Shown: in pieces, positions 25,120-36,823 of the stretch
How the letters are laid out: each line of letters opens with the position of its first letter
Position numbering within the stretch: the first letter of the stretch is position 1
DNA from: Gemmatimonadaceae bacterium
GTDB lineage: Bacteria > Gemmatimonadota > Gemmatimonadetes > Gemmatimonadales > Gemmatimonadaceae
Direction of reading: 5' to 3'
Length of the DNA stretch: 64,000 nt
NCBI GenBank assembly: GCA_020851455.1
Contig: JADZCT010000029.1
Location: 228,370 to 292,369 of the forward strand
The notes under the pieces: generated by a model
The model's input: only the letters and a program-made list of their open reading frames with translations
What the model was told of the DNA's origin: nothing
Databases searched by the model: none
Program-made: the position numbers and the translations under genes

Positions 25120-25285
25120 GGGAGTACCATCATCAGACAAGCGATCGCGGGACACGGAAGCCGGTGCAAGGCCGGCGCGGCCCCGCCACTGTAACGGGTT
25201 GCATCTGTGTCCAGCACGCCACCGGCGCGGCCGGGAAGGCGGATACGGAACCCGGAGCCAGGAGACGACCTGCGGTCGCGCCACG
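25120..25285 (+). promoter_or_regulatory. Cobalamin (AdoCbl) riboswitch
   Basis: Hallmark GGAAGCCGGTGCAAGGCCGGCGCGGCCCCGCCACTGTAACGGG (about 25156-25198) and GAGCCAGGAGACGACCTGC (about 25255-25272); upstream of BtuFCD-like genes. Boundaries approximate. Confidence 0.93.
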
Positions 25286-30799: not shown

Positions 30800-30828
30800 T
30801 TGACTCTCCTCGCCGGGCCCCATACTTT
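30800..30828 (+). promoter_or_regulatory. Putative promoter of the sorting-domain protein gene
   Basis: TTGACT (30800-30805), 17-nt spacer, TACTTT (30823-30828), about 70 nt before the ATG at 30901. Confidence 0.4.
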
Positions 30829-30900
30829 GCCATGAGAACAGGTATTTCCACCTCAACTTGGAGCTTGGTAATAGCCCCTACCTAGTCAGACGGAGCACAC

Positions 30901-31359
30901 ATGAGGATTCGCAGGTCCGCACAGCTGTTCGCGGTGCTGACCCTCGTTCTCATGCCACGAGCAATGAAGGCGCAGTCCACGCAGCCGGATCCGCAGCAGA
31001 AGAAGCCGGTTGTGGCGTTAGGGCAGAACTATCCAAACCCGTTCAATCCTGAGTCCAGGATTCAGTTCACGCTAGGCGACTATCCGGCGTGCACGGACGG
31101 CGGAAAGCAGTACCACGTGACGCTAAGGATCTACAACCTGCTGACGCAGGTCGTTGCGTATCCGCAGTTGGAAGGGAGTTCGGGTGGCGTGGCAGGGGGT
31201 CAGCGGCTCGAAAACGTGCTCTTGCCATGTGGCCAGTACACCGCGTACTGGAACGGCAAGTACATGGGCACGTCGAGGGAGGCCGCGTCAGGCACCTACT
31301 ATTGGCAGATCATCGCCGATGGCCAGAGCCTGATCAGGCGTTCGCTCGTTGCGAAATAG
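30901..31359 (+). CDS. Secreted stand-alone FlgD-like / T9SS type A-like sorting domain protein
   Basis: Signal peptide then LGQNYPNPFNPESRIQFTL...VTLRIYNLLTQVVAYP...YTAYWNGKYMGTSREAASGTYYWQIIADGQSLIRRSLVAK; no other domain. Confidence 0.8.
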   Translation: MRIRRSAQLFAVLTLVLMPRAMKAQSTQPDPQQKKPVVALGQNYPNPFNPESRIQFTLGDYPACTDGGKQYHVTLRIYNLLTQVVAYPQLEGSSGGVAGGQRLENVLLPCGQYTAYWNGKYMGTSREAASGTYYWQIIADGQSLIRRSLVAK

Positions 31360-31371
31360 GCTGGATCAATC

Positions 31372-31407
31372 GAACGAGGCCCGGGCGAACCATCCCGGGC
31401 CTCGTTC
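31372..31407 (+). terminator. Intrinsic terminator-like hairpin
   Basis: Perfect 14-bp inverted repeat GAACGAGGCCCGGG / CCCGGGCCTCGTTC with 8-nt loop, followed by ATTT. Confidence 0.75.
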
Positions 31408-34239: not shown

Positions 34240-36267
34240 CTATTGCGTCCTGACCAGCACGAGTTCAACCGCCGGCTGCAGCAGCGACGGCACGACTGCT
34301 GCCTGCACCCCGGGATTCACGCGGAACCGCATGTAGCCGGCGCCGCCTGCCGGCAGGGTGAATGACTGCGAGGCTCCGCCGATGATCTGCTTGGCCTGGA
34401 GCGGGAACCCGGTGTTACCGAGCTGGTTGGTGAGGATGTTCCGGAAGTTCCAGCTTGCGTGCTGGTAGAGCGGGTTGGCCGAAACCCCGGCGTCACCCAG
34501 GAAGTTCGCGAGCGCCCACGACCGGAACCCGGTTGCAATCCCGCCCGTGAACACCGGCCCCAGCACGGCGCTGAGGTTGGTCATTCCGTTCGACTTGGAG
34601 TTCACGAGCGCATGGAAGTACGAGTTGGACGGCAAGGTCCCGAGATCCACTGCGTATCGGAGGAAGCTCCATGTCGCGCCGCGGGTCGGCAGGTTGTCGT
34701 CCTTCGCGTATGGCGACGATGACTCAGGCGCCTTGAGGTAGCTGTTGTACCGGCTAAGGTTGTCAACCTGGTAGGCATTCGTCATGGCGAAGCCGGGGTC
34801 GCTGGCCGCGATCATCGCCAGCGTGAGGTCGCTCTTCGGCGCCAGCCCCGTGGCGCGATAGAAGAGCAACTCCTCGGCGATGTGCGAAAGCCCCTCATTC
34901 AGCCAGACCACCTCGAAGTCATCGGCGTCGTTCACGTACATCCGCCGGCTCGCGTTGATCAGGTGCTGGAATTCGTGAGTGAGCGTGCCGATTACGTCGG
35001 TGAGCAGCAGCGCCTTCGTCTTGAAGTAGGCGTTGTATACGGAGTTCGGGTCTACGACCGGCGCGTAGAACATCTCGCCTTCGTTGCTCGCTGCGCAGGC
35101 CTGGAGACCGAGCGCGGTGTTGCCGGCCGCGGGGAACAGGTCCCGCGCGTAGAAGAAGCCGCCGATGACCGAGCTTGCTCCGGCCGCCGTGAGCTTGTTC
35201 ACCGCCTGTGTAAAGAAGATGACTATCCGGCCGTTGCCGTCCATGTCGCTCGGGGCTCCAAAGGCGGTGGTATCGAGCGGGAAGACGAGCGTGTCGAACG
35301 TCGCGGCGAAGCTCTGGTAGTCCGCCGTGGTGAAGCCTCCGGCCGGGGCGGCCGTGTCGGCCAGGATGATGGACGACGAGCTGATCGCCACGACGCGGCC
35401 CACGTTGTACTCGGGCGTGTCGCAGGCGCGTTTCGAGTTGGTGTTGAGCGTCACGAGGTCGCCGAGCGCCGGCGTGGCAGAGAGGCCCTTCACCAGCGAC
35501 GGCGCACCGGGCGCCCGCAGCGGCGCACGGGCCCTGGCTTGCGCCTGCAGGCGCTCGTATGCGGCCGCGCGGTCCGTCCTGGCGCGCAGCAGCGGACCCA
35601 GTTCGGCGCGTTCGCGGGTGCGCAGGCCGACCTCGAACGCGCGGTTCGGTCCAGACGATGCCGCAGCCAGACTCGGGGCCGGGCCGGTCGGCAGTCGGAG
35701 CGCGGCGGCGGCTGGCAGCCCGATTGCCTGCGTGGTGTTGGTCGCATCGAGGCGCACGCCGAGCGCCTGGCCCGTCGTATCGAGGCTGTTGTTGAACGCG
35801 AGGAGCATGTACTCGCTCCCGGTCGTGCCGGCCGCGATGCAGATGGCGGAACGGTCCGGGCCCGCGAGCAGGCGCACGTCGCCGGGCACAAGTGCAAGTC
35901 CGGCCGCGCCTGCGCACGGGTTCTGAAGCGCTGCGACGGTGATGCTGACGCTGCCGATCTTTCCCTCGACGGTTGCCGAGATGATGGCGACCCCGGGCGA
36001 CACGCCCGTCACGGTGCCAGCGGCCGTCACGGTGGCAACGAGACTGTTCGACGAGTTCCACGTGGCGGCCCGGCCCGTGAGCACCGCGCCCGTGGCGTCC
36101 GCGACGGAGTAGGTGAGGACGACTTGCTGCCCGACGGTGATCCCGGTGCCCGGCGCAGTAACCGTGACCGAGGCCACGGGTTTCGGGCCTGTGCTTCCAC
36201 CGCCCTTGCTGCAACTGCTGAGGCCGGCTGCAAGCCCAATGGCGAGGAACGGCGCGAAACGTTTCAT
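34240..36267 (-). CDS. Secreted lipoprotein with Ig-like domain and M30 (hyicolysin)-like zinc metallopeptidase domain
   Basis: ATG at 36267; lipobox GLSSCSKG; PVASVTVTAPGTGITVGQQVVLTYSVAD; LTHEFQHLINASRRM...VWLNEGLSHIAEELLFY. Confidence 0.75.
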   Translation of the reverse strand: MKRFAPFLAIGLAAGLSSCSKGGGSTGPKPVASVTVTAPGTGITVGQQVVLTYSVADATGAVLTGRAATWNSSNSLVATVTAAGTVTGVSPGVAIISATVEGKIGSVSITVAALQNPCAGAAGLALVPGDVRLLAGPDRSAICIAAGTTGSEYMLLAFNNSLDTTGQALGVRLDATNTTQAIGLPAAAALRLPTGPAPSLAAASSGPNRAFEVGLRTRERAELGPLLRARTDRAAAYERLQAQARARAPLRAPGAPSLVKGLSATPALGDLVTLNTNSKRACDTPEYNVGRVVAISSSSIILADTAAPAGGFTTADYQSFAATFDTLVFPLDTTAFGAPSDMDGNGRIVIFFTQAVNKLTAAGASSVIGGFFYARDLFPAAGNTALGLQACAASNEGEMFYAPVVDPNSVYNAYFKTKALLLTDVIGTLTHEFQHLINASRRMYVNDADDFEVVWLNEGLSHIAEELLFYRATGLAPKSDLTLAMIAASDPGFAMTNAYQVDNLSRYNSYLKAPESSSPYAKDDNLPTRGATWSFLRYAVDLGTLPSNSYFHALVNSKSNGMTNLSAVLGPVFTGGIATGFRSWALANFLGDAGVSANPLYQHASWNFRNILTNQLGNTGFPLQAKQIIGGASQSFTLPAGGAGYMRFRVNPGVQAAVVPSLLQPAVELVLVRTQ

Positions 36268-36328
36268 GGAGATGGTTGGAGGCGTGCGGTAAGTTGGTTG
36301 GTGTCCCGAAACACCGTCAACGGCGTGG

Positions 36329-36823
36329 GTGCGCGATACGATGACAGCCGCAGGCGAAGGCAGCAGATCGGTGGGATCGGAAGAAGATGGCAGGTGGATG
36401 GCCGAGGCGCTGGAGGCGGCTCGCAAGGCGGGCGCGGCCGGTGAGGTGCCCGTCGGCGCGGTCGTCGTACGCGGAGGCGCCGTCATCGCCCGCGCTGGCA
36501 ACGCCATGCGCGCCGAAGGCGCGGTCGCGCACGCCGAGCTGCGGGCGATTTCCGATGCGATTCGGGTGACGGGCGGACCGTGGCTGGAAGGGTGCACGCT
36601 CTATGTGACGCTCGAACCATGCGCAATGTGTGCGGGCGCGATCGTCCTGGCCCGGCTCGACCGCGTGGTGTTCGGAGCGTGGGACGACAAGGCCGGGATG
36701 GCAGGGTCGCTTGGCGATCTGCTCCGTCACCCCGGGCTGAACCACTCCCCGCAGGTGCTCGCGGGCGTCGGGGCGACGGAATCGGCCGCGCTGCTCCGGG
36801 CGTTTTTCGCGACGCGGCGCTGA
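36329..36823 (+). CDS. tadA: tRNA(adenine34) deaminase
   Basis: EVPVGAVVVRGGAVIARAGN, AHAELRAI, LYVTLEPCAMCAGAIVLARLDRVVFGAWDDKAGMAGS; alternative ATG at 36341. Confidence 0.93.
   Translation: MRDTMTAAGEGSRSVGSEEDGRWMAEALEAARKAGAAGEVPVGAVVVRGGAVIARAGNAMRAEGAVAHAELRAISDAIRVTGGPWLEGCTLYVTLEPCAMCAGAIVLARLDRVVFGAWDDKAGMAGSLGDLLRHPGLNHSPQVLAGVGATESAALLRAFFATRR

Follow-up and report, generated by a model that had tools for sequence, protein, structure and literature searches.

A single-copy, free-standing T9SS-CTD-like protein with partial coupling to SprA in Gemmatimonadota

Results and Discussion

Sequence evidence supports the view that a 152-aa protein encoded in the 64,000-nucleotide stretch of Gemmatimonadaceae DNA analysed here (the window) is a free-standing module, exported by a signal peptide, that resembles the C-terminal domain (CTD) of the type IX secretion system (T9SS). 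In other bacteria the type IX CTD is the tail domain that marks proteins for export, and the T9SS is known experimentally from Bacteroidota. New here is a class-wide CTD-only gene, single-copy and fixed in place, with partial coupling to SprA and a dedicated leader. The reading that we prefer, to which we assign a probability of roughly 0.4, is that the protein serves as an accessory CTD-only ligand of the SprA-PorV system in most lineages and has, in addition, a second envelope role that outlives the translocon.

Gene and protein architecture

The locus contains the following features.

30800..30828, + strand: predicted promoter, TTGACT (30800-30805), 17-nt spacer, TACTTT (30823-30828); from sequence and conservation
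30835..30900, + strand: conserved 5' leader with two GGAG boxes (30860-30863; Shine-Dalgarno, 30892-30895); from alignment, transcript start putative
30901..31359, + strand: CDS of the free-standing T9SS-type CTD-like protein, 152 aa; from ORF translation and orthologue alignment
30901..30972, + strand: signal peptide, residues 1-24; from alignment, cleavage site predicted
31018..31356, + strand: CTD-like Ig module, residues 40-152; from the AlphaFold2 model and orthologue profile matches
31087..31089, + strand: Cys63 codon, one of a pair invariant in the window's family
31225..31227, + strand: Cys109 codon, partner of Cys63 in the invariant pair; disulfide presumed
31372..31407, + strand: perfect 14-bp hairpin, stem 31372-31385/31394-31407; -32.9 kcal/mol, z=-6.55; probable transcript end

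Translation of the open reading frame agrees with the architecture described in the earlier note, that of a secreted protein made of a signal peptide, a short linker and one sorting module. The predicted signal peptide extends to A24, the mature protein would begin at Q25, and a linker of ~15 residues leads into the module, which runs from L40 to K152 (LGQNYPNPFNPESRIQF...YNLLTQVV...TYYWQIIADGQSLIRRSLVAK) and carries a YPNPFNP motif at residues 44-50, W117, GxY at 131-133, K/R147 and the terminal K152. The mature protein is linker plus domain, as it is in the relatives, and the gene is present once in the window's genome. In the alignment, residues 24-25 are A-Q or G-Q in 196 of 211 orthologues, giving a mature N-terminus that resembles the Q-rule of Bacteroidetes, a rule that does not extend to the whole FCB group (PMC5837995).

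Similarity of the domain to type A CTDs

The profile searches had a divided outcome. On its own, the window protein matched CHU_C (E=0.045), PF18962 (E=0.078) and TIGR04183 (E=0.16) under the curated cut-offs, with 12-13.7 bits against the 23-27 set for TIGR04183 and PF18962, whereas many of its orthologues matched the same models: at E<=0.01, rather than at the curated cut-offs, TIGR04183 was matched by 35 of 54 orthologues (best 6e-7) and PF18962 by 38 (best 2e-6). FlgD_ig (PF13860), a related Ig-like domain, was matched by nine of the 54 at E<=0.01. FlgD is a flagellar hook assembly protein, and the window gene has no flagellar context.

The window protein alone found no match in a PDB sequence search, and the family profile matched only two PDB sequences, both gingipain CTDs and both weakly (E 0.59 and 0.94). 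The AlphaFold2 model of the window protein is all-beta (pLDDT 83.5, pTM 0.70) and is predicted to form the Ig-like beta-sandwich typical of type A CTDs. Searching with this structure returned only generic Ig-like matches, with the mirolase CTD at rank 29 and nothing at E<=0.001; the modelled fold is compatible with a CTD but does not single one out.

More specific likeness comes from individual residues. P45, P47, F56, N79, W117, G131 and Y133 are invariant across the 54-member alignment. K or R occupies position 147 in 99% of orthologues and position 152 in 92% of those from SprA-positive genomes, and the window copy carries R147 and K152. In type A CTDs a conserved lysine contacts PorV (PMC10994853), and the C-terminal end, with the conserved last-strand lysine, is important for function (PMC11285876). 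Judged by its place in the last strand, K/R147 would be the PorV-contacting position, and the family appears to possess the last-strand lysine (here K or R) and the basic C-terminal end of a type A CTD. With RgpB, RemZ and mirolase, the family has in common the YPNPFNP-type start, the Ig-like beta fold, the last-strand K/R and the C-terminal K/R. Unlike these type A CTDs, the window protein scores under the curated cut-off, has a cysteine pair, has no PorU found for its cleavage and, as in its relatives, does not lie C-terminal to a passenger protein. Because a passenger is lacking and export is only predicted, we classify the domain as T9SS-CTD-like rather than as proven T9SS cargo.

Free-standing CTD proteins have precedents in PorA and Fjoh_0547 (PMC7712824). 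PorA of Porphyromonas gingivalis is likewise a small, conserved, exported CTD protein that is not an enzyme, but it has 246 aa and a FimH-like N-terminal domain and acts through PorXY-SigP (PMC7712824). Fjoh_0547 of Flavobacterium johnsoniae, with 112 aa, has as little room for a passenger as the window protein; the comparison follows its description in PMC7712824, in which its gene is not described as conserved and single-copy.

The two cysteines, noted previously as atypical of the module, proved to be a family trait: exactly two, C63 and C109, occur at the same places in 61 of 61 aligned members of the window's family, and a C63-C109 disulfide is likely in the window protein. The two neighbouring families have 34 members, of which 28 carry two cysteines, five none and one three, some of the cysteines being located elsewhere in the domain, and the remaining families comprise 96 members with no cysteine and 20 with one. 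Many orthologues of one such family, f8, which mostly lacks SprA, carry a single cysteine in GVYYC. Orthologues of f8 (e.g., L102, L104 and L112) also bear a basic C-terminal extension such as PPKRRSRFWPFGRRGN.

Distribution, locus and selection

The survey of relatives that the earlier note had suggested found orthologues (E<1e-20) in 211 of the 295 genomes of the class (~70%), nearly always one per genome and with open frames mostly of 140-250 codons; matches of any kind numbered 214 genomes in a single-sequence search and 222 in a profile search. In almost all of the 40 loci read with their flanks, selB immediately precedes the gene. The nearer families have recO upstream and clpB-tadA downstream, and in the other families the flanking genes are of EIIA/dus type. 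In six pairs, dN was 0.015-0.23 and dS 0.06-0.97, a ratio of about 0.08-0.26, and the gene is under purifying selection.

These data bear on the idea that the gene is the remnant of an export tail, or a pseudogene, left after loss of its passenger. The mature protein has little beyond the tail and the window copy alone lies under the family cut-offs, as a remnant might, but the 211 intact genes, with signal peptide, promoter, leader and conserved place, and the dN/dS of about 0.08-0.26 in the six pairs make such an origin extremely improbable; a degraded tail is ruled out on the same grounds. Nor are the homologues all degraded ends of larger genes, the outcome that was to count against a genuine CTD-only protein, since the reading frames are intact, similar in size and fixed in place.

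A partner was also sought among the neighbours. The adjacent selB, recO, clpB, tadA and B12-uptake genes are housekeeping genes and point to none, and neither sprA nor porV was ever beside the gene among the loci read. Upstream of recO-selB in the window, a cobalamin riboswitch (25156-25266, 72.6 bits) precedes btuF/C/D-like genes. On the other side of the gene, the minus strand (34240-36597) encodes a protein of 785 aa that combines a Big_2 domain with a metallopeptidase-like TLTHEFQHLIN stretch, homologues of which occupy the same place in three further genomes of the genus.

Type IX secretion components in the genome and the class

The presence of a PorU/SprA-type T9SS was borne out for SprA and a PorV-family protein and failed for PorU. 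SprA of the window's genome (G000:C92) scores about 585 bits against TIGR04189 (cut-off 200) and 31 bits against PF14349 (cut-off 27), and SprA exceeds its cut-off in 199 of 295 class genomes. The PorV-family protein (G000:C24:1955-2776) reaches 91.3 bits for NF033709 (cut-off 90) and 19.2 bits, under the required 27, for Pfam PorV, and is therefore marginal; the family is over its cut-off in 32 of 61 genomes. No PorU sortase was over the cut-off in any of the 61 genomes, where only the CTD part of the model was matched. GldM was matched in none of the 61, and control genomes gave no match either. Beside sprA at G000:C92 (L244) are genes whose sequences resemble those of pilus/type II secretion ATPases.

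At least two larger proteins of the window's genome end in a CTD-like tail, an M14 zinc carboxypeptidase (C85) and a 363-aa secreted protein (C76). The carboxypeptidase (L246:1566-4475, G000:C85), with 969 aa and a CTD-like C-terminus, is a candidate T9SS cargo. Gene coordinates show a CTD-tailed protein encoded just ahead of porV, in the same orientation, at nine sites (two in G002 and one each in G003, G007, G019, G020, G026, G040 and G055), which suggests that these tandems are cargo-shuttle gene pairs in the class; this gene order ties the tail to PorV in the phylum. Since SprA, PorV and CTD tails occur together with CTD-porV tandems and no detected PorU, we place the domain with a sortase-less SprA/PorV-type system. 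A direct literature search for T9SS in Gemmatimonadota found nothing on point; PMC11285876 raises a T9SS in Gemmatimonadetes only as a possibility.

Partial coupling of the gene to SprA

Across the 295 genomes, 173 have both the gene and SprA, 38 the gene only, 31 SprA only (in the sense of no clear orthologue of the gene) and 53 neither, an odds ratio of 7.8 (Fisher p 2e-13, a value that ignores relatedness); some absences are perhaps assembly gaps (e.g., G077, G117, G279 and G285). Strict dependence on SprA is ruled out by the 38 genomes that keep the gene with no detectable SprA.

The domain itself differs between the two groups. The exact YPNPFNP motif is found in 119 of 173 SprA-positive vs 6 of 38 SprA-negative genomes, and C-terminal overhangs of at least 3 residues in 9 of 173 vs 16 of 38; at the genus level, 46 of 75 SprA-positive vs 3 of 17 SprA-negative genera retain an intact motif (p 0.002). 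A tree inferred from only the core of the domain allowed each SprA-negative clade to be compared with its nearest SprA-positive relatives; the motif score was lower in 14 of 20 such clades, higher in 2 and equal in 4. Six of the 20 clades belong to f8, and the result becomes 10 vs 2 when f8 is counted once (sign test ~0.04) and 9 vs 2 when it is left out (~0.07). Consensus identity in SprA-positive and SprA-negative orthologues is 0.89 and 0.83 for the core, 0.90 and 0.71 for the motif and 0.80 and 0.55 for the C-terminal end. K/R147 is retained in both groups alike, so not every presumed export determinant decays, and motif decay is seen in SprA-positive lineages too. Taken as sequence patterns, these results support, short of proof, the conclusion that the motif and the C-terminal end serve SprA-dependent delivery and that the domain is also useful without SprA.

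The partial nature of this coupling also suits an alternative that follows the preferred reading closely, although it too must be held tentatively: that the protein is a structural Ig-domain protein of the periplasm or outer membrane, derived from a T9SS tail and now T9SS-independent, so that its likeness to CTDs reflects ancestry only and its fixed features serve folding or the binding of another envelope partner. Retention of the gene in the 38 genomes lacking detectable SprA, to which almost every genome of family f8 and of genus g68 belongs, is what such a protein would lead one to expect, as is the persistence there of the Ig core and K/R147; the housekeeping neighbours and the invariant cysteine pair, which suits a stable periplasmic or exported fold, point the same way. 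Less easily accommodated are the preferential decay of the motif and C-terminus where SprA is absent and the correlation of gene presence with SprA, extending to genus g2 and the single genomes G118 and G136, which have neither.

Persistence of the gene without SprA could also be explained if this small CTD protein took a SprA-independent route to the surface and acted, like PorA, as an envelope-stress or secretion signal. Both PorA and Fjoh_0547 are reported to arrive at the surface or in the medium independently of the SprA/Sov channel (PMC7712824), and a small CTD protein therefore need not use that channel. We nevertheless consider a PorA-like signal unlikely, as the window protein has no distinct N-terminal sensing domain, only its ~15-residue linker, and motif decay in the absence of SprA would be left unexplained.

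Proposed role

In favor of an accessory CTD-only ligand of the SprA-PorV system, we count the single-copy, class-wide orthologues, the place after selB, the purifying selection, the orthologue matches to TIGR04183 and PF18962, the SprA/PorV/CTD context, the co-occurrence with SprA, the decay of the motif and C-terminus where SprA is missing, and K/R147. Against it stand the 38 gene-only and 31 SprA-only genomes, the retention of K/R147 without SprA, the motif decay in some SprA-positive lineages, the weight of f8 in the clade comparison, the separation from sprA and porV at every locus read, the channel-independent export of PorA and Fjoh_0547 and the generic nature of the Ig-like fold matches. 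Under this preferred reading, the signal peptide would be cleaved at A24/Q25 and the domain would fold in the periplasm, where, in the window's family, the C63-C109 disulfide would form. PorV would then recognise the domain in the SprA channel, as described for type A CTDs, and the domain would come to lie on the outside of the outer membrane. As PorU was not detected, the CTD would remain uncut and would itself be the functional unit, attached to PorV or to a different outer-membrane protein. It might serve there as a small constitutive ligand or regulator of the envelope and secretion machinery, a role of the same kind as PorA's, instead of labelling a passenger. Lineages without SprA would keep the domain for a SprA-independent envelope role, while its export features drift. 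The decoy, surface-attachment, shuttle and structural roles proposed in the earlier note are guesses.

The distribution shows that SprA, PorV-family proteins and CTD cargo occur throughout the class, with no detected sortase and with one CTD kept free. A free CTD offers a small, tractable test of how a CTD acts without a passenger or removal by a sortase, and a CTD-only protein provides a marker for the secretion system in a poorly studied phylum.

Promoter, leader and 3' hairpin

The TTGACT-N17-TACTTT promoter ascribed to the gene gains support from its relatives, as TTGAC is conserved upstream in 91 of 115 orthologues compared with a mean of 11.7 in shuffles. A generic promoter scanner did not report TTGACT-N17-TACTTT because its -10 element is weak, with 3 of 6 matches. 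At the other end, the perfect 14-bp stem previously called a terminator is present and unusually stable (z=-6.55), but it is followed only by ATTTGG and is not a textbook intrinsic terminator in the window. Different stems lie at about the equivalent place in most relatives of the window's family, some of them followed by U runs, and the hairpin probably functions as a terminator. The gene's own promoter and the 3' hairpin support the monocistronic arrangement claimed for it.

Between promoter and start codon, two GGAG boxes and a CCT...GTCAG stretch are conserved in the window's family; its alignment revealed no conserved fold in the leader. In each of the 16 searched genomes that have the gene, a leader model gave a single significant site, upstream of the gene, a result whose informative part is the absence of other sites, the model having been built from leaders of this same gene. 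Four genomes without the gene had no site. A leader common to other genes, such as sprA or porV, was considered and rejected, there being no such sites in the 20 genomes searched. An Rfam search with the leaders gave no match.

A broader proposal would join the leader to the secretion components: Gemmatimonadota would have a sortase-less T9SS in which the class-wide CTD-only protein is a built-in SprA-PorV ligand, its expression controlled by its own leader. As a whole we regard this combination as doubtful; within it, the built-in ligand may be a gate-keeper, an occupancy sensor or a PorV-bound surface component.

Leaders of a different kind precede the gene in families f5 and f7 (e.g., L053, L056 and L078), where the pattern GGAGGGCxATCG...GCTAC.GCACAG-loop-CTGTGCGGAGG forms a predicted hairpin beside the Shine-Dalgarno sequence. 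In this hairpin 92.7% of cells are paired, with 9 double changes vs 1.9 in shuffles, and the covarying leader, for which Rfam has no match, is possibly a new cis-regulatory RNA.
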